Shown piece by piece: positions 15 through 10,248 of a stretch of DNA of 10,356 nucleotides (positions within the stretch are counted from its first letter, which is position 1; each line of letters starts with the position of its first letter). The stretch is taken from NCBI GenBank assembly GCA_002868985.1, contig PKTV01000158.1, forward strand, positions 1 to 10,356, given 5' to 3'. The DNA is from Desulfobacteraceae bacterium. GTDB taxonomy: Bacteria; Desulfobacterota; Desulfobacteria; Desulfobacterales; UBA11574. A program made the position numbers and the translations under genes. The notes beneath the pieces are model-generated. The model did no database searches, was not told the origin of the DNA, and saw only the letters and a list, made by a program, of their open reading frames with translations.

Positions 15-836
15 GTGGAACCTATATTTCTTGTTGTCATTATATTTTACATGTTGAGCACCATCGGATATCTTATTTATCTTTTTCTTCAGAAAGATTA
101 CCTTCAGAAAACCGGTTTTTACCTCCTGGCAGCCGGATTTTTATGCCATACGGTGGAAATGGGTTATCGATTTGTTCAGTCAGGACACTTTCCTGTCAGC
201 AACCTTCATGAAACACTTTCATTGGCAGGCTGGACCCTCGCCGGTGTTTTTCTGCTATTTCAAGACAGATATCGTCTCAAGATTCTGGGAATTTATGCCG
301 CTCCCCTAATTACGATCGTGATGGTCATTGCAGCCCGTTTGCCGAACGTACCGAGCAAGACCCATACGATCTTAAACAGCTTTTGGCTTATTGTGCACGT
401 GGTTGCGATTTTTATCGGTGAAGCGTCATTGGCGCTGGCCTGCGGCGCCGGGCTCTTGTATCTTTTACAGGAGAATGCCATTAAATCCAAACAACGCGGT
501 TTCTTTTTCAAACGACTTCCATCTTTGGAACTGCTCGACAATACGGGTTATGCATGTATCGTCACCGGTTTTGCCATGCTGACGTTTGGGCTGATCACCG
601 GGTTGATATATGCTAAATCGGTCTGGGGAAGATTCTGGAGCTGGGACCCCAAAGAAGTATGGTCCGGCATTACCTGGATCTTGTATGCCGTCCTTCTTCA
701 CCAGCGTCTGACGGTTGGATGGCGGGGACGCCGAGCGGCAATTATGGCCATCATCGGTTTTGCTGTCATCTTATTTACGTTTTTAGGGGTTAACTTTTTC
801 TTAAAGGGTCATCACGGAGAATTTACCCGAATGTAA
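15..836 (+). CDS. ccsA: CcsA-type cytochrome c assembly / haem-handling membrane protein
   Basis: Predicted polytopic inner-membrane protein of 273 aa in the CcsA/ResC/CcmC haem-handling superfamily, which delivers haem for covalent attachment to periplasmic c-type apocytochromes (System II maturation, with a CcsB/ResB partner not seen here). The tryptophan-rich WWD-type motif is complete at residues 204-217 (WGRFWSWDPKEVWS). Candidate haem-ligand histidines lie at about 45, 65 (SNLHETL), 128 (WLIVHVV) and 266-267 near the C-terminus. Hydrophobic segments cover roughly residues 4-25, 34-52, 68-83, 88-107, 122-150, 178-200, 216-230 and 242-262. The start is GTG: an in-frame TAA lies directly before it (12-14), so no longer form exists, and AAGGG at 2-6 is a fitting ribosome site. 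hemA follows after 136 bp; ccsA-like genes next to hemA are common in deltaproteobacteria. HemX of Bacillus hem operons is a relative, but the intact WWD motif favours a cytochrome c assembly role. Confidence 0.85.
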   Translation: MEPIFLVVIIFYMLSTIGYLIYLFLQKDYLQKTGFYLLAAGFLCHTVEMGYRFVQSGHFPVSNLHETLSLAGWTLAGVFLLFQDRYRLKILGIYAAPLITIVMVIAARLPNVPSKTHTILNSFWLIVHVVAIFIGEASLALACGAGLLYLLQENAIKSKQRGFFFKRLPSLELLDNTGYACIVTGFAMLTFGLITGLIYAKSVWGRFWSWDPKEVWSGITWILYAVLLHQRLTVGWRGRRAAIMAIIGFAVILFTFLGVNFFLKGHHGEFTRM

Positions 837-972: not shown

Positions 973-2241
973 ATGTTAGACATCGTATTACTGGGATTGA
1001 ATCATAAAACAGCGCCGGTGGCGCTGAGAGAATGCCTTGCCATCTCAAAGGATGAGACATCCGTTGCCCTCAAAGCGTTTAAGGAACTTCTGTCTATCCG
1101 TGAAGTGATGCTTTTTTCCACCTGTAATCGTGTGGAAGTTCTCATGATTGTTCAGGACAAAACGAACGCGGTGGATGCCGTTAAAGATTTTCTTTCTGAA
1201 TTAAAACATCTTCCGGTTTCCGAATTTGAAAAATCCCTCTATATTCATGAAGGTGATGATGCCGTCCGGCATGTATTCAGGGTTGCCGCCAGTCTTGATT
1301 CCATGGTGGTGGGAGAGCCACAGATCCTGGGACAGATAAAAGAAGCCTATCAAATGGCCACAACAACGAAGACTTCCGGTGTTCTTTTGAACAAATTACT
1401 CCATCGTACTTTTTTCGTGGCCAAACGGATTCGGACGGAAACCGGGATCGGAGATCATGCAGTGTCCATCAGTTATGCGGCCATTGAACTGGGTCGAAAA
1501 ATTTTCGGAACCTTTGAAGGAAAAAAAGTGCTGCTTATCGGTGCCGGTGAAATGGCGGAGCTGGCGGTGGAACACCTGATCCGAAACAGGGCAGAGGATA
1601 TCCTGGTTGCCAATAGAACGTTTGAGAGCGGTGTTGACCTGGCCAAGAAATTTAGAGGACAGGCGATCCGGTTCGATGAAATCGAGGACGCTTTACAACA
1701 GGTAGATATCATCATCAGCTCGACCGGTTCTCCCGATTACGTGGTGACTCGAGATCATGTCAAAGGAATCGTACGCCGGCGTCGCAATCGCCCCCTTTTC
1801 TTTATCGACATTGCTGTCCCTCGTGATATCGATCCGGAAATCAACCGGCTTGCCAATTCATATGTTTATGATATTGATGATCTCAAGGGAATTGTTGATG
1901 AAAATGTCAAGGATCGCAACAAGGAAGCGATAAAAGGAGAAAGAATCGTTGATGAGGCCGTGATCAGCTTCCGGCACTGGTGCGAAAGCCTGGAGGTAGT
2001 ACCGACAATTGTTGAATTGAGAAAAAAGATTGAGGAAATAGCAAAAGGAGAATTAAAAAAAACGCTTCATACAGCAAAGCATCTCTCGGCTGACGACATC
2101 ATGGCCATCAACAGAATGACGGATGCAATGGTCAATAAAATACTTCATGATCCTACGATGCTGCTAAAAGGCAACGGACACCACCAGGACAAATCCGTTT
2201 ATCTCGACGTTACCCGAAAGCTGTTTAAGCTTGATGAATAG
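973..2241 (+). CDS. hemA: Glutamyl-tRNA reductase (HemA)
   Basis: Catalyses NADPH-dependent reduction of glutamyl-tRNA(Glu) to glutamate-1-semialdehyde, the first committed step of the C5 route to 5-aminolevulinate, haem and other tetrapyrroles, in the cytosol. The 422-aa length is normal for the family. The N-terminal catalytic domain shows GLNHKTAPVALRE at residues 8-20 and the nucleophile Cys51 in STCNRVE (49-55). GEPQILGQIKEAY at 114-126 is another family signature. The NADPH-binding domain has the Rossmann motif GAGEMAE at 190-196, followed by ANRT (213-216). The C-terminal dimerisation helices follow from about 315. The ATG is preceded only by a weak purine stretch (AAGAA), but the family motifs begin immediately after it, so the start is credible. 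The upstream ccsA-like gene links haem supply to cytochrome c maturation. hemC, the usual downstream neighbour, is absent; an olefin-pathway hydrolase follows instead. Confidence 0.97.
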   Translation: MLDIVLLGLNHKTAPVALRECLAISKDETSVALKAFKELLSIREVMLFSTCNRVEVLMIVQDKTNAVDAVKDFLSELKHLPVSEFEKSLYIHEGDDAVRHVFRVAASLDSMVVGEPQILGQIKEAYQMATTTKTSGVLLNKLLHRTFFVAKRIRTETGIGDHAVSISYAAIELGRKIFGTFEGKKVLLIGAGEMAELAVEHLIRNRAEDILVANRTFESGVDLAKKFRGQAIRFDEIEDALQQVDIIISSTGSPDYVVTRDHVKGIVRRRRNRPLFFIDIAVPRDIDPEINRLANSYVYDIDDLKGIVDENVKDRNKEAIKGERIVDEAVISFRHWCESLEVVPTIVELRKKIEEIAKGELKKTLHTAKHLSADDIMAINRMTDAMVNKILHDPTMLLKGNGHHQDKSVYLDVTRKLFKLDE

Positions 2242-2368
2242 TGTCCTGAAATATGCACAAGCCGGAGGCTTTCATATGCTGCGTTATTAAGGGCTCGCAA
2301 TAGCTAACTATGGCTTCGCCCTGAAGTGCCTTGCATATAAAAGCCTCCAACTCGTGCAAATTCCAGGA
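2241..2368. repeat. Long imperfect palindrome between hemA and oleB
   Basis: Two 36-nt arms, 2244-2279 and 2333-2368, are reverse complements at about 30 of 36 positions by eye, with no gaps. The left arm starts TCCTGAAATATGCAC and the right arm ends GTGCAAATTCCAGGA. The 53-nt interior contains smaller pairings: AGGGC at 2290-2294 with GCCCT at 2318-2322, and ATAG with CTAT inside that. The element begins at the last base of the hemA stop codon (TAG followed by TGTCC). In RNA it would form one long branched hairpin, so it could end hemA transcription, although no clean T-run follows. It shares the GTGTCC start with the 9041-9182 element and ATGGCTTCG with the 7151-7290 element. Confidence 0.75.
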
Positions 2369-2422: not shown

Positions 2423-3334
2423 ATGCTACATAAAACCAAACATATTGACATCTCCGAAATACGTCATCTTTACCCGTTTAAATCCAATTACATAAAAATA
2501 AACGGCCTGAATTATCACTTCCTTGACCAAGGTTCGGGGGACCCGGTGGTCATGCTTCACGGAAATCCTACCTGGTCGTTTTATTTTCGTAACCTGGTTA
2601 AAGGCTTGTCATCACAATTTCGCACCATTGTGCCGGATCACATCGGGTGCGGCCTGTCGGACAAACCGGGTGTCGATCAATATGACTATCGTCTGAAGAG
2701 CCGTGTCGACGACCTGGAGAATCTTCTCGACACCTTAGGGATAAACCAAAAGATAACACTGATACTCCACGACTGGGGGGGGATGATCGGTATGGCGTAC
2801 GCTTTGAGACATCCGGAAAGGATTCGCCGATTTGTCATCATGAATACCGCGGCCTTTCTTTTGCCGGAGGGTAAGGCACTCCCTGTAAGACTTCGGCTGA
2901 TACGAAATATCAAGCCGTTTGCTTCATTGGCGGTACTCGGCTTTAATATTTTTGCCTATGGTGCGCTTTTCATGGCTTCTTACAAAGGCCTTGAAAAAGA
3001 TGTAAAATCGGGCCTCATTGCTCCGTACAATAGCTGGAACAACAGGATAGCAACATTAAAGTTTGTTCAGGATATTCCTGTCAAAAAAAAGGATCCGAGT
3101 TACCGTCTTGCAAAATATGTGGATGACAACCTGCATCGATTGAATCACATTCCCATGCTCATTTTATGGGGTGAACACGATTTCGTGTTTGATATGGATT
3201 ATCTTTTGGAATGGCAGTGCCGTTTCCCTGATGCAAAAGTAAAGACATTCAAAGGTGCGGGCCATTATGTTCTTGAAGATGCAGCAGACAGAATTATTCC
3301 GATGGTTAAGAATTTTATGAAATATCATATTTGA
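2423..3334 (+). CDS. oleB: OleB-type alpha/beta-hydrolase (beta-lactone decarboxylase)
   Basis: Predicted cytosolic alpha/beta-hydrolase, 303 aa from this start, of the haloalkane-dehalogenase-like branch that contains OleB. OleB decarboxylates a cis-beta-lactone to a cis-olefin, the last step of head-to-head olefin synthesis. Numbered from this ATG, HGNPTWSF lies at 46-53 (oxyanion region), PDHIGCGLSDKP at 71-82, the nucleophile Asp117 in LHDWGG (115-120), a candidate acid Asp253 in LWGEHD, and the base His281 in GAGHYVLED. An aspartate nucleophile fits OleB and haloalkane dehalogenases, not ordinary esterases. An in-frame GTG at 2354 would add 23 residues, but those codons run through the right arm of the upstream palindrome and the added peptide is unlike the family, so I chose ATG 2423; its ribosome site is weak. 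The OleB assignment, rather than a dehalogenase, rests on the OleC and OleD genes nearby in the same orientation. The convergent CBS gene ends 67 bp downstream. Confidence 0.86.
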   Translation: MLHKTKHIDISEIRHLYPFKSNYIKINGLNYHFLDQGSGDPVVMLHGNPTWSFYFRNLVKGLSSQFRTIVPDHIGCGLSDKPGVDQYDYRLKSRVDDLENLLDTLGINQKITLILHDWGGMIGMAYALRHPERIRRFVIMNTAAFLLPEGKALPVRLRLIRNIKPFASLAVLGFNIFAYGALFMASYKGLEKDVKSGLIAPYNSWNNRIATLKFVQDIPVKKKDPSYRLAKYVDDNLHRLNHIPMLILWGEHDFVFDMDYLLEWQCRFPDAKVKTFKGAGHYVLEDAADRIIPMVKNFMKYHI

Positions 3335-3401
3335 TTCTTCTTCCTACCGGTAATTTTCCGGCAGTTATCTATCCTCACATGGTTTTTCACATAACGGAAT
3401 T

Positions 3402-3803
3402 TCAGGAGAGGTCTTCGGCCAGTTTTACGAAGATGTTGGCGTTACTGAGAATACCGATCAATTTGGTTCCATCGACCACGGGCAATCTTCTTACACCCAC
3501 CATTCGCATCATCTGATGACAGTTTGAAATGGACAAGCCGGTATTAACAGTAATCGCAGGCTTGGTCATCACATCATCGACCAAAAGTGATGTCCCTCCG
3601 ACTGGATTAATGACAATCGCTTCAACGACATCCTTGCGAGTAATAATGCCGAATGCATCCCCATCGCTTTCAGGTTCAATGATAAGACTCGAAACGCTGA
3701 AATCGCGCATTATTTTAATGGCCGTCAACAGCGTTACATCTTTATGGACTGTTTTGACGTCAGTCTTCATAAGATCTTTGACTCTGATTTTATCTGCATC
3801 CAT
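3402..3803 (-). CDS. Two-CBS-domain protein
   Basis: A stand-alone cytosolic CBS-pair protein of 133 aa. CBS pairs (Bateman modules) usually bind adenosyl ligands such as AMP, ATP or SAM and act as energy or ligand sensors; the ligand here cannot be read from sequence. The first CBS domain covers about residues 7-65 (VKDLMKTDVKTV, then GIITRKDVVEAI). The second covers about 74-130 (VDDVMTKPAITV, then GVRRLPVVDGTKLIGILS). The DLM/DVM openings and the G-I-I/L-(T/S)-x-x-(D/N) closings are typical. No other domain is fused to it. The start is well supported: GGAGGG (complement of 3813-3818) sits 9 nt before the ATG and is the clearest ribosome site in the window. It lies 48 bp downstream of the FapA-like gene on the same strand, so the two are probably cotranscribed. 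Its partner is unknown. Confidence 0.9.
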   Translation of the reverse strand: MDADKIRVKDLMKTDVKTVHKDVTLLTAIKIMRDFSVSSLIIEPESDGDAFGIITRKDVVEAIVINPVGGTSLLVDDVMTKPAITVNTGLSISNCHQMMRMVGVRRLPVVDGTKLIGILSNANIFVKLAEDLS

Positions 3804-3851
3804 ATCTCTTTGCCCTCCATATAAAACACCATATACCTTAAATCTGAATAG

Positions 3852-6458
3852 TTAGGTTGCAAGTTCCACAGCCTGTCGTTCTTCATTCAAAACAAACAGA
3901 GCTTTACCTCTGATATCTTCTTTGACATGATAGACGCACCCGTTTATGATTATGGTCGTCCCTAAATATACGGCCTTGTTAACCTTCACTTCCACAGGTT
4001 CGGTCTCTGTTTCAGAGATTTCTTGTGCCAGTTTTTGCCTGTATTTGACCATCATGGTTTCTTTACGCACGACTTCACGCCTAAATTTAACCAGTTTATC
4101 AAGTCTACGGATTATTTCTCCAGGAAGCGTTTTGCTTTTATATTTTTTAACGAATCGGGCTAAAACCTTGTCCGTCTTAGCCCTTTTTCGCTTAAAACTT
4201 TCAAGCTGTTTTTTAGCATCAGCCAAAAGCTTCCGAGTCTTTGAATCCGTTCCGACACTCACATATGTTTTTATTCCGGCATCGGATCCAATTTCGTTAG
4301 CTTCCACACCCTTGGCAGCCTCAACTGAACCGCCTCTTATACGACCTTTTCCTTTAGTTACCATTATAATGCCATTGGCTGATACAGTGCTGCGCAATAT
4401 GTCATCACGGACAAATATGTCGCCATCGGCATGGACTCGGGCACCTTCAAGAAAACGGGCCGTGATATTTCCGCCGGCCTGGACTCTTCCTTCAGCCGAA
4501 CCGATGACTCCGCCGTCTATGTAAATGTCGACACCGGCTTCAACAATAGCGTCTTCAACACCGCCTCCGATTTTTATTTCATCGCTGGCGCGTACTTCGA
4601 ATCCCGAATGAATCCAACCTTTGATATCCAGCGACCCTTCCATTGACAGGTTGCCAATTGAATAATCCACATTACCGGGGACTTCGTACTGTTTGGAAAT
4701 CCATATTTTGTTTTCCGGCGAAAGAAAAATTATGCCATCGATTTCGGATGTAAAACTAAGCCCATCTTCTGAAACTTTAACGTTGCCTGCCGTCTTGAGG
4801 TCTTTTTCACTTCCGGGTTTGGTAGGAAGAATATTGCCAAATACGTCCACCCCTTCTATTCCGGGTGTCGGCGGAATCTTGACTGCCAGCAGCATTCCCG
4901 CCTTGGCGCTTTGTATTGATTTGCGTTCTTTATAATTAATGTTTCCGGAGTGCTCATCAATAGTTCCCGCAATCATCTCCGGTTGAAATTTAAGTTCGAT
5001 TTGCGCGTCCTCTCCTCGCTGGGCTGCTTTCCCCTCTGCAATCACTACATCATGAACCGGCATGTTTTTTGAGGCAGCCTCGTTCAGCGCCTGTTCAATG
5101 GCGCTGCCATCGATACCCTGGACTATTCCGCGGCCGGCCAGTAATTTCCCAACCAACTCCATAGTAAGCATCCTGCCCGACTCCGACGGAGGATGAACAG
5201 ACAGATAGACGCTTAATTTGTCCTCAGCCACAATCAGTGGGTCGTTGACACACAATTGGCCATTGATGTAATCTGCATAGCCTGCCAAAACGCCCTCGGC
5301 AACGACAAAAGTCACGCCGTCATAGAGAACAGCAACGTTCGCGCCGGGAGTTATCTGTTTGTCCTTGGGTTCGGCACCGGTCAGGGGTTTTCCGGTTATG
5401 GTGCTGCCATGCAAGGGTTTTTCCAGCAAAGTTTTTATGGCAAGCACATCGCCGGCTGAAAACATCTCCTTGATAACGGAAGATTCAGGCAGTCTGCTGT
5501 TTTGTCTTTCAGCATCGACGGTTTCGGGATCATCGCCATTAAGACGGAATTTGAATTCTATCCGGGCATCAACACCGTCTTTGGCCGGAGCAGCTTCGGC
5601 GACCATGAGATCCCGAATCGGTTCGCCCGCTTCAATGGCCTTTATAACCGAATCTTCTTTAATACCGCTGATTACGCCTGCCTGTTCCAGCGCTGTAAAT
5701 ACATCTTTATATGTAAGCTTGCTGTTGTCGGCAAGTGTAGGGAATATGGACATTTTAGCCCACATCCCTGATTTGTCGACCTTGATCGGATTTTCTGCCG
5801 ACACTTTCTTGGGGGTTAATCGCGCCGTACCATATATGGCAGCCAGTAATGTATTACCATCCTTGGTGACGGTAACATTCTCTCCGGAAGAAAAATCGAC
5901 CTCATTGCCCATCCTTGCAGGAACTTCTTCACCAAAAATGTTTCTGCCCGGCGTTCCTTTTGCGGCGGGAATTCGAACAGCGACGATCTGATCCGGTTTG
6001 ACCATCATATTGGCACTAGGATCTTTATTGACAGCATCCTGCCCGATTTTCAGATCGATTCGGCCGTCCTGGCCGCTTTCGGCAGGATCGCCGACGGCAA
6101 CCTGGATATTGTTACACGGAGTGCCGGTATTTATTACTTCGGAAACAATATTTTTGATGACTTCTTTGTTGATGCCGAAAACAATTTTGAGATCGGCGAG
6201 GGCGTGTTCGATGTCTTCAACGGTTACCGGCTTGCCCTTGCCCAAAGGCGGCGTTATCGTCCCGATGGCGGCACCCATCTTATCTTCCGATATGGTAATA
6301 TCGAATTGGCCGGGCATGTTCTTTATCGAAACAGCATACGTTTGTTCATCGACCGGTACGACGTTGACATCGTCGGGCTGAACGCCGAGCTGCCGGGCGC
6401 CTTCAATACGAGCGCTTTTGTCGGTTTTCACGGAAACGGTAACAGTGGTATGCTGCAT
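3852..6458 (-). CDS. Long FapA/DUF342 protein with three repeated N-terminal modules
   Basis: An 868-aa FapA-family (DUF342) protein; many relatives are roughly 450-700 aa. FapA in Vibrio vulnificus influences flagellar assembly, but most family members have no proven role. Three copies of one module are visible, centred on about residues 85-137, 256-304 and 438-491. Each has an I-x-x-G-I stretch, then a helix, G/N-x-P, V-A/I-A, a G-(E/Q/V)-D-(A/G)-(Q/R)-I core and (L/F)-K-(F/I). Longer linkers with P-G-x-(N/D)-(I/V)-F-G signatures follow the first and third (169-176, 533-541). Residues about 592-735 are a glycine-rich right-handed beta-helix (SMEGSLDIKG, EIKIGGGVEDA, IYIDGGVIG, VQAGGNI, VHADGDIFV). 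Residues 738-815 are a basic, charged helix, likely coiled coil, before a small beta cap. No signal peptide or membrane segment is seen, so it is probably cytosolic. The ribosome site is weak. No flagellar gene is nearby, so a flagellar role is unsupported here. Confidence 0.88.
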   Translation of the reverse strand: MQHTTVTVSVKTDKSARIEGARQLGVQPDDVNVVPVDEQTYAVSIKNMPGQFDITISEDKMGAAIGTITPPLGKGKPVTVEDIEHALADLKIVFGINKEVIKNIVSEVINTGTPCNNIQVAVGDPAESGQDGRIDLKIGQDAVNKDPSANMMVKPDQIVAVRIPAAKGTPGRNIFGEEVPARMGNEVDFSSGENVTVTKDGNTLLAAIYGTARLTPKKVSAENPIKVDKSGMWAKMSIFPTLADNSKLTYKDVFTALEQAGVISGIKEDSVIKAIEAGEPIRDLMVAEAAPAKDGVDARIEFKFRLNGDDPETVDAERQNSRLPESSVIKEMFSAGDVLAIKTLLEKPLHGSTITGKPLTGAEPKDKQITPGANVAVLYDGVTFVVAEGVLAGYADYINGQLCVNDPLIVAEDKLSVYLSVHPPSESGRMLTMELVGKLLAGRGIVQGIDGSAIEQALNEAASKNMPVHDVVIAEGKAAQRGEDAQIELKFQPEMIAGTIDEHSGNINYKERKSIQSAKAGMLLAVKIPPTPGIEGVDVFGNILPTKPGSEKDLKTAGNVKVSEDGLSFTSEIDGIIFLSPENKIWISKQYEVPGNVDYSIGNLSMEGSLDIKGWIHSGFEVRASDEIKIGGGVEDAIVEAGVDIYIDGGVIGSAEGRVQAGGNITARFLEGARVHADGDIFVRDDILRSTVSANGIIMVTKGKGRIRGGSVEAAKGVEANEIGSDAGIKTYVSVGTDSKTRKLLADAKKQLESFKRKRAKTDKVLARFVKKYKSKTLPGEIIRRLDKLVKFRREVVRKETMMVKYRQKLAQEISETETEPVEVKVNKAVYLGTTIIINGCVYHVKEDIRGKALFVLNEERQAVELAT

Positions 6459-6526
6459 TTTTCAGCGGTCTCATGTCATTGAAGATTTATAAACACTATG
6501 ACAAAATCCTTACAAGTCTGTGCACG

Positions 6527-6578
6527 AACCGTAAGCTATAAGCGGGCAAGTGCATTTGCTGATTAACCCGTGACGGTT
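6527..6578 (-). other. Nested inverted repeat between the small gene and the FapA gene
   Basis: AACCGT at 6527-6532 pairs with ACGGTT at 6573-6578. Inside it CGGG (6543-6546) can pair with CCCG (6567-6570), and GCAA (6546-6549) competes to pair with TTGC (6556-6559). It fills most of the 122-bp gap between the two minus-strand genes, starting just after the small gene's stop codon. It may be a processing or attenuation structure in the shared transcript. No T-run follows on the minus strand, so I do not call it an intrinsic terminator. Confidence 0.35.
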
Positions 6579-6580
6579 TC

Positions 6581-6877
6581 CTATTCCTCGTCTTCGGGAT
6601 AAAACGTAAATCCTGTTGTTGATTTTTTGGCAAAGAATTTTAGAAAGCCGACTTCCTTTATTTCTTCCAAACTAATTGTCGGGCGATCAGCTTTTTCATT
6701 TAATATGGTATCCCTTAAATTAGGATTTTGATGAGTTAAGATGATGGCAATTTTTTCAGCCTCTTGTGGGCTCTCTGCCCTTACAAATCTCGTGGCATAA
6801 AACCCAAATTTATTGAGTTCACCGTCAAGATTGAGGAGGAAATTCTTCCCATGGAGTTTTACCTTGAATTTTTTCAT
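6581..6877 (-). CDS. Small conserved-looking protein of unknown function
   Basis: A 98-aa soluble protein that I cannot assign to a named family. It begins MKKFKVKLHGKNFLL, has a short beta-rich start, a helix about residues 34-45 (ESPQEAEKIAII), and ends with the aromatic stretch TTGFTFYPEDEE. The pattern of beta strands, a central helix and an acidic tail looks like a compact alpha-beta domain. It resembles small unnamed proteins I associate loosely with similar genomes, but I cannot confirm that. I start it at the internal ATG (residue 9 of the longest frame, which opens at 6901) because MKKFK is a typical beginning and GAG lies 6 nt upstream; the longer start has no ribosome site. It is the first gene of the minus-strand group with the FapA-like and CBS genes. 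There is no signal peptide and there are no cysteines, so a metal-binding or exported role is unlikely. Confidence 0.7.
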   Translation of the reverse strand: MKKFKVKLHGKNFLLNLDGELNKFGFYATRFVRAESPQEAEKIAIILTHQNPNLRDTILNEKADRPTISLEEIKEVGFLKFFAKKSTTGFTFYPEDEE

Positions 6878-6935
6878 CGAATTCTCTTTTTCGGCTAACA
6901 TTAGATATTAAATAGTCGGCGTTATAACTTGTACT

Positions 6936-6958
6936 CTTCCCAGTAGGCGAACTGGAAG
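6936..6958. promoter_or_regulatory. Dyad upstream of the minus-strand operon
   Basis: CTTCCCAGT (6936-6944) and ACTGGAAG (6951-6958) are inverted copies apart from one extra C, separated by 6 nt (AGGCGA). The site lies about 60-80 bp upstream of the small gene's start, a suitable place for an operator or a leader hairpin. No regulator is encoded in the window, so the role is a guess. Confidence 0.35.
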
Positions 6959-6994
6959 TCAATTGTTGCCTAATACATATATCATAAAAATGAA

Positions 6995-7026
6995 AAGGGC
7001 AAACTCCTAAAAAAAGATTTACCCTT
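6995..7026. other. AAGGGCAAA / TTTACCCTT hairpin
   Basis: AAGGGCAAA (6995-7003) and TTTACCCTT (7018-7026) form a 9-bp stem with one C-A mismatch (G-T on the other strand) and a 14-nt A-rich loop. It sits in the divergent intergenic region, about 120 bp from the minus-strand gene start and 340 bp from oleC. It may be a weak bidirectional terminator or a relic of a structured leader. Confidence 0.35.
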
Positions 7027-7150
7027 ATTGAAAAAGATATCACAAATATTTTATTTGTTTCACAATTTATCTTTCCGCATGTTTGGCATTATGATAATAA
7101 AGCATCTTTACAACCCTTGATAGTTATTGTAGCTTATACCTGAATACTGC

Positions 7151-7290
7151 ATCGAAAATCTCGATGGCTTCGTAAATCTCGCTTCAGCGGTACTGCGCTG
7201 TATTCCTCGTAATTGCAGCGTAGAATAAGTACGTCTCATTCCTCGGAATTTGCGCGCTTTTATATCCCGCTGTTTTTCTGCGGGGGGATT
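7151..7290. repeat. Repeat-rich structured element upstream of oleC
   Basis: This 140-bp stretch is dense in repeats. There is a hairpin ATCGA (7151-7155) / TCGAT (7161-7165), and AAATCTCG repeats directly at 7156-7163 and 7174-7181. An imperfect direct repeat opens ATTCCTCG at 7202-7220 and 7238-7256. At the right end CCCGC (7266-7270) pairs with GCGGG (7280-7284) around a T-rich loop. It shares the 11-mer AGTACGTCTCA (7228-7238) with the 9041-9182 element and ATGGCTTCG (7164-7172) with the 2241-2368 element, which suggests a dispersed intergenic repeat family. The borders are approximate. Confidence 0.55.
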
Positions 7291-7332
7291 TAAAGCTTTT
7301 TACTTTTTATGAATTCATCAATCTTGATAGAT

Positions 7333-7338
7333 TATAAT
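7333..7338 (+). promoter_or_regulatory. Possible -10 box for oleC
   Basis: A perfect TATAAT lies 30 bp before the oleC ATG, which would place transcription start near 7345 and leave a leader of about 20 nt. No recognisable -35 hexamer lies 16-18 bp upstream, and the region is AT-rich, so this may be chance. Confidence 0.35.
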
Positions 7339-7367
7339 AGCTTTAGATTTGGAATTGATTCGAACAA

Positions 7368-9041
7368 ATGAGCCCAAACAATCATGAAGAAGAGCGTCAT
7401 GTCGTAAATATCGCGTCCTACTTGAAAAGAGTGGCCGGAATTGAACCCTACAAACGGGCGGTTGTCTATCCCGCAGGCCGGGACAACTCCGGCCGGGTGA
7501 TGTATTCTCATTTGACGTTTTTGCAGCTGGATCGGGAATCCGATTGTCTGGCTCACGGGATGGAAAAAGCCGGGATCACCCGCGGGACCCGGACCATTTT
7601 AATGGTAAAACCGGGTCTGGAATTCTTTATGATTATTTTCGCCCTGTTCAAAATCGGGGCTGTTCCGGTTGTCGTGGATCCGGGGATGGGGATTCGCCGA
7701 ATGGCAGAATGCTTCAAAGAAGGCCGGCCGGAAGCGTTTATCGGTATTCCAGCGGCCCACGTGATTCGAACTTTTTATTCCAGATTTTTCAAAACCGTTC
7801 GGGTATGGGTAACGGTGGGAAGACGCTGGTTCTGGAGAGGTTTTACCCTGAATCAGACACGTCAGGTGCCATGGAAACCCTATGTTACGGCCAAAACCCG
7901 AGGAAACGATACCGCTGCGATATTGTTTACAACCGGTAGCACAGGCCCTGCCAAGGGTGCAGTGTACACTCACGGAAACTTTGACGCACAGTTGCGTCAC
8001 ATAAAAACCCATCTTGGACTGTCCATGGAAGAAATCGATCTTTCCACATTTCCGCTTTTTGCGCTGTTTTGGCCGCCGTTGGGGATTACTTCCGTCATTC
8101 CGGACATGGACCCCACCAAGCCTGCCCGTGTAAATTCTAAAAAGATTATCGAGGCCATTCTGGACCAGGGCGTTACCAACATGTTTGCTTCTCCCGCTCT
8201 TTTGAATCGCGTGGGTGAATACGGAAAAAAGAGAAATATTATACTGCCGTCCCTGAAACGGGTCATTTCCGCCGGTGCACCCGTATCTCCATCGATTGTC
8301 GAAAAGTTTGCGTCCATGTTGGGTGAAAATGCTCAGATTCATACACCCTACGGGGCTACCGAAGCGGTGCCCATTATATCCATCACCAGCAATGAAATCC
8401 TGACTGAAACCCGAAAATTCAGTGAAAAGGGCTACGGGATCTGCATCGGACGACCCATTAATGATCTAAAAATCCGCATCATAAAAATAAGTGATGATCC
8501 TATTCAGATGTGGTCGGACGATATTCTGGTAGAAGATGGTGAGATGGGTGAGATAACGGTAGCCGGTGATCTCGTGACCCGGAAATACTTTGAAAAGCCT
8601 GAAGCCGACGCAAAGGCCAAGATCGAAGACAAAGATTCCTTTTGGCATCGGATGGGAGACGTAGGATGGACGGATTCAAAGGGGAGAATATGGTTCTGCG
8701 GCCGAAAAAGCCATCGTGTGGTGACTAAAGAGAATACTCTTTTCACCATACCTTCTGAAGCCATCTTCAACAATCATCCACAGGTGTTTCGAAGTGCCCT
8801 TGTGGGAATCGGCCCCCACAATCAACAAAAACCGGTCATATGCATCGAACTAAAACGAAGCCGCCACAAAATAAACAAAAAGGATCTGAAAAAGGAGCTT
8901 CTTGAGCTTGCCGATCAGAACGAAATGACAAAGGACATCAAGACCATACTGTTTCACAAGTCTTTTCCCGTGGACATTCGACACAACTCAAAAATTTTTC
9001 GTGAAAAATTGGCAAGATGGGCTGAAAAGAAATTAAGTTAG
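7368..9041 (+). CDS. oleC: OleC-type AMP-forming beta-lactone synthetase
   Basis: Predicted 557-aa member of the ANL (acyl-CoA synthetase-like) superfamily. OleC uses ATP to convert a 2-alkyl-3-hydroxyalkanoic acid to a beta-lactone, the third step of olefin synthesis, with no CoA transfer. The phosphate-binding loop TTGSTGPAKG is at 188-197, the adenine-site motif YGATEA at 328-333, the ribose-binding aspartate in RMGDVGW at 428-434, the hinge region in CGRKSHRV at 444-451, and the C-terminal catalytic-lysine candidate Lys542 within VDIRHNSKIFREKL (535-548). That VDIRHN-x-KI ending is characteristic of OleC as I know the family, and the length is normal. The ATG is preceded by a weak site (GGAATT, 13 nt upstream); residues before it are not family-like. 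It runs in the same direction as oleD, 181 bp downstream. A general fatty-acyl ligase is the alternative, made less likely by the adjacent OleD and nearby OleB. Confidence 0.9.
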   Translation: MSPNNHEEERHVVNIASYLKRVAGIEPYKRAVVYPAGRDNSGRVMYSHLTFLQLDRESDCLAHGMEKAGITRGTRTILMVKPGLEFFMIIFALFKIGAVPVVVDPGMGIRRMAECFKEGRPEAFIGIPAAHVIRTFYSRFFKTVRVWVTVGRRWFWRGFTLNQTRQVPWKPYVTAKTRGNDTAAILFTTGSTGPAKGAVYTHGNFDAQLRHIKTHLGLSMEEIDLSTFPLFALFWPPLGITSVIPDMDPTKPARVNSKKIIEAILDQGVTNMFASPALLNRVGEYGKKRNIILPSLKRVISAGAPVSPSIVEKFASMLGENAQIHTPYGATEAVPIISITSNEILTETRKFSEKGYGICIGRPINDLKIRIIKISDDPIQMWSDDILVEDGEMGEITVAGDLVTRKYFEKPEADAKAKIEDKDSFWHRMGDVGWTDSKGRIWFCGRKSHRVVTKENTLFTIPSEAIFNNHPQVFRSALVGIGPHNQQKPVICIELKRSRHKINKKDLKKELLELADQNEMTKDIKTILFHKSFPVDIRHNSKIFREKLARWAEKKLS

Positions 9042-9182
9042 TGTCCACCCAGAAATGGCCCTTTTTCCGCCGAGCGTCGTTCTCCTCGGCTTTCCGGCTG
9101 CGACGTACGTTGAGTACGTCTCACCGCAAACCCTTGTGCGGCCTTGCTCGACGAAAAAATTGCTCATTTCTGCATTGGACAC
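9041..9182. repeat. Multi-hairpin palindromic element between oleC and oleD
   Basis: Outer arms 9041-9075 and 9146-9182 are reverse complements with small gaps; both ends read GTGTCCA in their own direction, and CAGAAATG is conserved in each. Enclosed are three clean hairpins: GCCGAG/CTCGGC (9069-9074 with 9085-9090), GACGTAC/GTACGTC (9102-9108 with 9114-9120) and CCGCA/TGCGG (9124-9128 with 9137-9141). The first overlaps the left outer arm, so not all pairings can coexist. The element starts at the last base of the oleC stop codon (TAG then TGTCC), exactly as the 2241-2368 element does after hemA. It fills nearly the whole oleC-oleD gap. Confidence 0.75.
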
Positions 9183-9222
9183 ATAATGGTACCTCCACGA
9201 TTCGCGGATGGGCACAAGTTAA

Positions 9223-10248
9223 ATGAAAAACAATGACTCCAATACAGCCAAGTCTTCCGATCAGGTTCTGGTCACTGGCGGCGGCGGATTTTTGGGCGGT
9301 GCCATTGTCAGACAACTGGTGGAAAGAGGCGACCGTGTCATCAGCTTTTCACGGCGCTTTTATCCGGAGCTTGCGGCAATGGGGGTTGAACAGATCCAGG
9401 GAGACATCAGCGATGCAACCGCTGTAGAACAGGCATGCCGGGAAGTTGATCTCGTATTTCACGTTGCGGCAAAACCCGGCGTATGGGGAGATTATGTAAC
9501 GTATTACCAAACCAATGTCATCGGGACTCAGAACGTGATCGTTGCCTGTAAACAGCATAATGTTTCACGGCTTGTTTATACCAGTTCCCCCAGTGTTGTT
9601 TTTGACGGTTTTGATATGGAAGGTGTTGATGAGTCTGTTCCCTATCCTGAGAAATATCATGCCCATTACCCGAAGACAAAGGCCATGGCCGAACAGTTTG
9701 TGATAGCGGCCGGTGATGAGGACTTGAAGACTATTATTTTGAGGCCCCATTTGATATGGGGTCCACAGGACAATCATCTGGTGCCGAGAATTATTGAACG
9801 GGCAAACCGCCTGGTCAGGGTGGGAAACGGCAGAAACCTGGTGGACACCATCTACATCGATAACGCAGCAGATGCTCATATTCAGGCTGCTGACAGATTG
9901 GAACAAAACCATAACCTTTCCGGCAGGGTTTATTTTATCAGCCAGGACGATCCCGTTCCTTTATGGGAGATGGTCAACAATATTTTAAGAAAAGCAGGTC
10001 TGGCCCCTGTTCAGCGTTCGATATCCCGCAACACAGCATGGATGATTGGCGCTGTCCTGGAAATTTTATATAAGATGCTTAAAATCAGGGGCGAACCGAG
10101 GATGACACGTTTTTTAGCCGATGAACTTTCGACAGCCCACTGGTTTGATATCAGCGCGGCAAAAAAAGACCTGGGATACGCACCCAAAATTTCGATGGAA
10201 GAGGGGCTTTCCAGACTTGAAAAATGGTTTAGCATAAGCTATAAATAG
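9223..10248 (+). CDS. oleD: OleD-type NAD(P)-dependent 2-alkyl-3-oxoalkanoate reductase
   Basis: Predicted 341-aa extended short-chain dehydrogenase/reductase, NAD-dependent epimerase/3-beta-HSD type. OleD reduces the beta-keto acid made by OleA to a 2-alkyl-3-hydroxyalkanoic acid, the substrate of OleC. The cofactor-binding motif is VTGGGGFLGGAIV at 17-29, with the following arginine-rich end SFSRR (41-45). The catalytic triad is visible as SSPSVVF (Ser121-Ser124 region) and Tyr149-x-x-x-Lys153 in HYPKTKAMAE. RPHLIWGPQDNHLVPRI (174-190) is the usual substrate-side motif of this subfamily. An in-frame TAA at 9220-9222 directly precedes the ATG, so there is no longer form; the ribosome site is poor (GGATGG, 11 nt upstream). 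It follows oleC in the same direction but behind a large palindromic element, so cotranscription is plausible and not certain. The alternative is a sterol or sugar epimerase-like SDR; context favours OleD. Confidence 0.88.
   Translation: MKNNDSNTAKSSDQVLVTGGGGFLGGAIVRQLVERGDRVISFSRRFYPELAAMGVEQIQGDISDATAVEQACREVDLVFHVAAKPGVWGDYVTYYQTNVIGTQNVIVACKQHNVSRLVYTSSPSVVFDGFDMEGVDESVPYPEKYHAHYPKTKAMAEQFVIAAGDEDLKTIILRPHLIWGPQDNHLVPRIIERANRLVRVGNGRNLVDTIYIDNAADAHIQAADRLEQNHNLSGRVYFISQDDPVPLWEMVNNILRKAGLAPVQRSISRNTAWMIGAVLEILYKMLKIRGEPRMTRFLADELSTAHWFDISAAKKDLGYAPKISMEEGLSRLEKWFSISYK

Follow-up and report, generated by a model that had tools for sequence, protein, structure and literature searches.

A likely two-step break-up of an ole gene cluster around a FapA-CBS gene pair in a group of uncultured Desulfobacterales

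We analysed a 10,356-nt stretch of DNA (hereafter the window) from a Desulfobacteraceae bacterium (GTDB lineage Desulfobacterales; UBA11574), in which three genes of the olefin pathway, oleB, oleC and oleD, are interrupted by an opposite-strand block of genes encoding a FapA-like protein, a CBS protein and a small orphan protein. The window is an entire contig (PKTV01000158.1; C355) of a metagenome-assembled genome (MAG; GCA_002868985.1, here G000) that has 577 contigs and a contamination of 5.17%. We consider it likely that an ole cluster was taken apart here in two steps, a rearrangement and then the insertion of a FapA-CBS gene pair. In the first step, the ancestor of the genus would have undergone a reciprocal rearrangement, for example one inversion, that broke the cluster between oleA and oleB and a heme locus between hemA and fabD; pfa-oleA-fabD would thereby have come to lie in one place and ccsB-hemA-oleB-oleC-oleD in another. 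In the second step, which was presumably the later one, a mobile two-gene FapA-CBS module would have entered the oleB-oleC spacer on the opposite strand, and a small orphan gene and palindromic repeats would also have arrived in this spacer.

A preliminary description of the window, made from its sequence, had recognised oleB, oleC and oleD as pointing in the same direction and had placed between oleB and oleC a 3.5-kb minus-strand block encoding a 98-aa protein, a FapA-like protein and a CBS pair. The open reading frames (ORFs) and domain matches bear this out (Table 1), the CBS "pair" being a single 133-aa protein with two domains. The block spans positions 3402-6901, and 4,033 bp lie between the oleB stop codon and the oleC start codon. 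The same description did not see that oleA and oleB had already been cut apart by an exchange with the hemA-fabD locus, nor that the insertion is not confined to the window's genome.

Gene order in the order and in the family

We searched for OleC in 60 genomes, namely the window's own and 59 relatives (23 members of its family and 36 genomes of other families), and retrieved the surroundings of oleC in 55 of the 59 relatives, giving 56 loci with G008 represented twice; a strong OleC match was absent from G007, G010, G043 and G050. Of the 32 loci outside the family that could be assessed (34 in total), 25 had oleB no more than 600 bp ahead of oleC and two had it at 0.8-2.0 kb; it was not seen in five, one of which (G036) has a 41% OleC match that is perhaps not OleC. 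Half of the 34 loci (17) had the full series of pfa, oleA, oleB, oleC and oleD in this order. The statement in the preliminary description that ole genes usually lie close together therefore holds outside the family. Inside it, with the window set aside, 18 of 22 loci were assessable: oleB was adjacent to oleC in five, at 2.2 kb in one and not seen in 12, where the upstream DNA extended for at least 3 kb in eight and for 1-3 kb in four. Closeness of oleB and oleC differed between the family and other families with p = 0.0008 (Fisher's exact test), genomes of one genus not being independent. We conclude from these counts that a clustered arrangement is normal for the order and that it is breaking up in this family.

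The sister genus retains the older arrangement in part. In G014, pfa, oleA, oleB, oleC and oleD are still together in this order, with an unrelated insert separating oleB from oleC; in G017 the order pfa-oleA-oleB-oleC continues up to the contig end; and G019 is split into an oleAB and an oleCD contig. A further member, G010 (97% complete), yielded neither OleA nor OleB at E <= 1e-40 and OleC no better than 2e-23; it seems to have lost the ole pathway although its genus-mates keep it. Given the split in G019 and the lack of strong ole matches in G010, we conclude that breakage is repeated.

Two further observations concern individual relatives. The insert in the G014 spacer (L038 5434-7072) contains two ORFs that by eye are of HigA/ImmA type and HigB type, a toxin-antitoxin-like pair; it is an independent hit on the same spacer. 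In the single-contig genome G008, oleC matches in two pieces ~690 kb apart, at 0.67 Mb and 1.36 Mb, the first (residues 12-179) after oleB and the second (residues 390-556) before oleD. The sole OleA match of G008 at E <= 1e-40 has 42% identity and is located elsewhere; a large rearrangement seems to have broken the pathway.

Junctions of the rearrangement and edges of the block

The first step is recorded in two junctions, which we observed directly. Outside the window's genus (G000, the window's own bin, to G004), hemA matched in 18 genomes; 16 of these loci were retrieved, and two ended too soon to be assessed. In all 14 assessable loci, hemA was followed by an acyl-transferase (fabD-like) gene and then, where the contig allowed, by PHP, RNase III (rnc) and radical SAM genes, and ccsB stood upstream of hemA in 15 of the 16. 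Within the genus, hemA was instead followed by oleB in G000, G003 and G004 (the G001 contig ends inside hemA), and in both genus genomes assessed for it (G001 and G004) oleA was followed by the fabD-like, PHP, RNase III and radical SAM genes. Both junctions would arise from one inversion that breaks oleA from oleB and hemA from fabD, and its result would be a hemA-oleB-oleC-oleD run; such a contiguous run would have been present in the ancestor.

The other end of the cluster appears undisturbed. At least one of three genes, encoding a PocR-domain protein, a 259-aa protein (X259) and a cytochrome c3-like protein, occurred after oleD in all 17 family loci with DNA past oleD, including G014; four loci were left out of this count, three because they end inside the cluster (G002, G017 and G021) and the fourth being G012. 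The last 90 bp of the window likewise match the oleD downstream flank of G003 and G004. From these conserved downstream neighbours we conclude that oleCD did not move.

Both edges of the insertion are also preserved. Over the 25 bp after the oleB stop codon, the window is 92% identical to the sequence flanking oleB in G019; a comparison by eye with G014 and G019 shows similarity as far as about position 3376. Upstream of oleC, an element of 50-66 bp (80-92% identity) is common to G001-G004, G006, G014 and G019, that is, to seven of the 17 family loci inspected; it was absent from the inspected loci of g4, g6, g8 and g9 and from G017. By eye, the element comprises TTTACA (7107-7112), 17 bp and TAGCTT (7130-7135), a putative promoter from which oleCD would be read independently. 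That the old oleB 3' flank and the old oleC upstream element are both kept around the block supports its insertion into the oleB-oleC spacer.

FapA lies beside oleC in three of the five genus members (G000, G002 and G003). In a fourth, G001, a 78-codon oleC relic lies beside FapA and the orphan gene and is 93.5% identical to the full oleC of the same genome on another contig. As this neighbourhood recurs in four species, the insertion probably predates the split of G000, G001, G002 and G003. The start codons of FapA and oleC are divergent and ~250 bp apart in G002, and other sequence lies between the two genes in the remaining three species. No FapA match was found in G004, in which oleCD are present.

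Three side observations concern the spacers. A short leader, ATTGATTCGAA (7354-7364), lies 3 bases before the oleC ATG and by eye is common, with small changes, to loci of g1, g7 and g8, whose oleC surroundings differ; the G004 leader differs. The palindromic repeat between oleC and oleD is missing from G003, whose oleC and oleD abut, and palindromic repeats of this sort may explain the frequent breakage of the region. No further copy of the palindrome between hemA and oleB was found among the 80 loci compared, the window's own genome not having been searched for it.

Table 1. Features of the window, including its eight genes from the ORF map
Feature	Position	Strand	Evidence
ccsB (cytochrome c biogenesis), on the left side of the rearranged heme locus	15-836	+	TIGR03144, 228 bits (cut-off 187.6)
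hemA, glutamyl-tRNA reductase; proposed breakpoint directly 3'	973-2241	+	TIGR01035, 474 bits
Imperfect 125-bp palindrome in the hemA-oleB gap	2244-2368		Self inverse match, 71% over 126 bp
oleB, beta-lactone decarboxylase (putative)	2423-3334 (longer frame from 2354)	+	Identity, place
Old oleB 3' flank; left insertion edge	3335-3376	+	Likeness to G019 and G014 flanks
CBS-pair protein, 133 aa	3402-3803	-	Two CBS domains, 80 bits
FapA-like protein, 868 aa	3852-6458	-	PF20250, three stretches, 319.5 bits (gathering score 27); PF03961, 208 bits (gathering score 31)
Small orphan protein, 98 aa (6581-6877) or 106 aa (ATG at 6901)	6581-6901	-	No Pfam or NCBIfam match
Old oleC upstream element, promoter-like; right insertion edge	7081-7145	+	80-92% over 50-66 bp in 7/17 family loci
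Interspersed repeat between upstream element and oleC	7139-7325		8 matches in own genome, itself counted
oleC, olefin beta-lactone synthetase (putative)	7368-9041	+	NF045786, 620 bits, and NF045785, 599 bits (both under cut-off); place
Interspersed palindromic repeat, oleC-oleD spacer	9042-9200		45 matches in own genome, itself counted, many partial
oleD, 2-alkyl-3-oxoalkanoate reductase (putative)	9223-10248	+	NF042422, 430 bits, and NF042423, 429 bits (both under cut-off); place

The inserted pair and competing histories

The FapA-like protein consists of three FapA_N stretches and a beta-solenoid domain. FapA of this kind (at least 66% identity) occurred in nine of the 24 family genomes; in an order-wide draw of 291 genomes, eight carried it at E <= 1e-100, all in the family and none outside it. 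A protein search listed 112 relatives, among them proteins of 44-52% identity named Thermodesulfobacteriota, Desulfatiglandaceae and Desulfobulbaceae. The CBS gene directly followed FapA in all eight genomes in which the FapA 3' end is assembled. In five genomes of two other genera (G007, G015, G016, G018 and G020; g4 and g8), the pair occurred without an ole gene in the 4.6-20 kb retrieved, three of the contigs being shorter than 6 kb, and other-genus carriers with strong ole matches had their ole genes on different contigs. The FapA of G015 is 75-76% identical to those of the window's genus and only 65-66% identical to those of its genus-mates G018 and G020, whereas its OleC is 90-93% identical to theirs. 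Consistent with this, the FapA tree rejects G015, G018 and G020 (g8) as one clade (approximately unbiased test, p = 0.00036), whereas the OleC tree supports g8 at 100/99. Given that the pair lies away from ole genes in other genera and that its tree conflicts with that of OleC, we conclude that the module moves horizontally; the lower synonymous divergence of FapA than of oleC (values below) suits such a module too.

We did not find the original site of the sequences flanking FapA in G001: at E <= 1e-100, one of 24 genomes had the radical SAM gene and six had the redox gene, neither gene occurring elsewhere in the genus. There was no tRNA in the window or in locus L090 that could have served as an insertion site. 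No Pfam entry covers the orphan protein, for which 169 homologues were counted; of the 120 that were listed, many are 98 aa long, and the two given with an organism name belong to Desulfobacterales. Its gene was present in 12 of the 24 family genomes, beside FapA in G000 and G001 only and otherwise on contigs without ole or FapA matches. PADLOC models gave no match for the CBS, FapA or 98-aa protein, and the block as an anti-phage defence system was dropped on this ground.

Several observations weigh against a two-step history. The window's arrangement is carried by one MAG contig, and no genus member has a contiguous hemA-oleB-oleC that lacks the block. In G004, oleB and oleCD are on separate contigs, and on both of them the side facing the missing partner consists of other DNA for 9 kb or more; hemA is followed by hemE in G002 and on a second contig of the window's bin; and G012 has an oleC without oleD or the usual downstream neighbours in the 9 kb beyond. 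Past the CBS gene, the window departs from G001 and G003 at a point where these two still match each other for ~56 bp; neither has an oleB in the DNA past CBS, 2.3 kb in G001 and 0.6 kb in G003. The insert may thus originally have been longer, or the junction of oleB with CBS may have arisen later. Synonymous divergence (dS) poses a further difficulty. For FapA, dS between the window and G003 is 0.185 (0.147-0.222) and between the window and G001 0.173 (0.138-0.210), compared with 0.287 (0.229-0.355) and 0.316 (0.248-0.384) for oleC, the 95% intervals being just apart; such low values for FapA fit poorly with plain descent in the four species, and the FapA interval overlaps those of hemA and oleD (both to G003) and of ccsB (to G001). 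Later exchange of FapA between the four species would explain the low dS.

Some of these points could be read as signs that oleB and oleCD parted independently in the genus and that, in the window's lineage, the hemA-oleB end was rejoined by chance to the FapA-CBS-oleCD end, within 4 kb. The separate contigs of G004 and the lack from the window of the CBS 3' flank common to G001 and G003 would be expected on this account. However, two pieces of the cluster would have to come together again, in a genome of ~3 Mb, with their former order and strand, and the kept edges and reciprocal junctions suit one contiguous ancestor better. We regard chance rejoining as unlikely, if the least so of the alternatives. 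An earlier interpretation of ours, in which oleB and oleCD had been placed separately and then met by chance, was dropped because oleCD lie in their old place and because the hemA-oleB and oleA-fabD exchange is reciprocal. In G003, the contig on the CBS side ends in a repeated stretch and another contig ends inside oleB; the two could join.

The fragmentation and contamination of the MAG raise the question of whether the contig is an assembly chimera that joins oleB to CBS, as do the different DNA after CBS in G001 and G003 and a second hemA in the bin at 91% identity. Arguing against this, the junction (3335-3401) matched nothing in the 80 loci compared, the oleB flank of G019 excepted and the rest of the window's own genome not having been searched, so that no repeat was seen that could join unrelated reads; moreover, the join restores the old oleB-then-oleC order and strand. 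We consider a chimera improbable. The second hemA (G000:C391, L105 6798-8084), which is followed by hemE as in G002, is a sign of co-binned congeners or a real duplicate.

The preliminary description had left two alternatives, an insertion into an ole cluster or a block kept there for a functional reason, such as a ligand-sensing CBS protein that controls lipid output. The first is favoured by the gene orders of G014 and G017, by the five genomes with the pair away from ole genes and by the two kept edges. The comparison of the oleB-oleC interval among relatives came out in line with insertion for the other genera, where the pair lies off the ole genes; it did not turn up a genus member with a bare oleB-oleC interval. 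For the second, in which either a CBS sensor or a shared divergent control region would set lipid output, one can cite the adjacency of FapA to oleC in three species, the oleC relic in G001 and the divergent start codons of G002. No link to ole was seen outside the four species, however, and in three of these the intervening sequence separates FapA from oleC; G004, like genomes of other genera, has oleCD and no FapA, and the module tree conflicts with the OleC tree. We found nothing that ties the pair to lipid output and consider a functional link very unlikely; still less likely is an undescribed mobile two-gene sensor module that came to control oleCD through a shared divergent promoter as in G002. 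A rearrangement followed by insertion of the FapA-CBS pair is the history we retain.

State of the Ole proteins and relation to described clusters

We compared the window's proteins with NCBIfam models. OleC fell below the cut-offs of both olefin beta-lactone synthetase models (620 vs 900 and 599 vs 850 bits) and, among the models listed, passed just the general 'fatty acid CoA ligase family protein' (736 vs 478 bits); OleD fell below the cut-off of 580 with both 2-alkyl-3-oxoalkanoate reductase models (430 and 429 bits). These Ole-specific models are of Xanthomonas and Shewanella type, and the scores are high nonetheless. The assignment of OleC and OleD is thus one of place and identity, not of Ole-specific cut-offs. 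OleB scored highest with three haloalkane dehalogenase models but reached the cut-off of none of them (best 164 vs 241). OleB is 48-70% identical to the gene directly upstream of oleC in other families and 68-82% identical to other full-length copies in its own family (one partial copy, 91%), and D117, D253 and H281, which from the fold family we take to be the catalytic Asp-His-acid residues of OleB, are invariant across 41 sequences. We call the gene oleB because of this identity, its place and the three invariant residues. That it encodes a true haloalkane dehalogenase was rejected on the model cut-offs and gene order, without a tree including true dehalogenases.

The three genes are under purifying selection. 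The ratio of nonsynonymous to synonymous divergence (dN/dS) for oleB is 0.15 to G003 (192 codons) and 0.07 to G004 (dS 1.8, near saturation); against congeners it is 0.13-0.19 for oleC and 0.14-0.17 for oleD. The whole range of 0.07-0.19 is similar to that of hemA (0.10-0.15).

All four ole genes are present in the bin, with oleA on another contig, C90, after a PfaDH gene; a co-binned origin of this oleA is possible. The C90 protein passes PRK09258 ('3-oxoacyl-ACP synthase III'; 479 vs 285 bits), and we call it OleA because relatives in other genera of the family that are 81-88% identical to it precede oleB. The gene before it is represented in G001 by a longer copy, which resembles Pfa synthases in having four FabA-like dehydratase stretches together with a ketosynthase. 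With oleA separate and an oleB-oleC gap of 4.0 kb, the ole genes are no longer clustered in the window's genome. Nevertheless, the predicted enzymes look intact, so that genome shuffling, and not a new control system, is most likely. As predicted from the sequences, the pathway most likely still works, with condensation by OleA, reduction by OleD, beta-lactone formation by OleC and decarboxylation to an olefin by OleB; acyl chains for OleA probably come from the neighbouring Pfa-like synthase, and the product would be a hydrocarbon.

Compared with the oleABCD clusters of Shewanella and Xanthomonas, the window has orthologues of OleB, OleC and OleD by identity and order; it differs in the location of oleA, which is on a separate contig and in two congeners lies beside fabD, in the position of oleB after hemA and in the opposite-strand block between oleB and oleC. 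The OleA-D steps and the link to Pfa are given in PMC6463001, and the placement of OleA beside a Pfa-like gene in the window's bin resembles the ole clusters linked to polyunsaturated fatty acid synthesis described there. According to PMC3098273, ole genes are often linked to Pfa-like clusters, can be elsewhere and differ in configuration; the adjacency of a Pfa-like gene and oleA is as in the Pfa-linked ole genes of Deltaproteobacteria, whereas two junctions and an inserted module make the break traceable in the window's genus. The oleABCD clusters of PMC7064751 have 0 to 3 intermediate genes, a range that accommodates the window's three between oleB and oleC; here, though, all three lie on the opposite strand, two make up a horizontally moving pair, and the cluster has lost oleA. 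The FapA-like protein shares its domain make-up with FapA/DUF342 proteins (PF20250, PF03961) and differs in its three FapA_N stretches and its constant CBS-pair partner. Borrelia fapA lies among flagellar genes (PMC11607428), whereas there is no flagellar gene among the window's eight, the rest of the genome not having been searched for them. No paper on the FapA-CBS pair or on this rearrangement was found in the open literature searched.

The locus draws attention to FapA and CBS as an unstudied pair of genes that moves from one genus to another. Its traceable junctions show a clustered lipid pathway that has been dismantled while its genes stay under purifying selection, suggesting that the OleB, OleC and OleD proteins here need no gene clustering.

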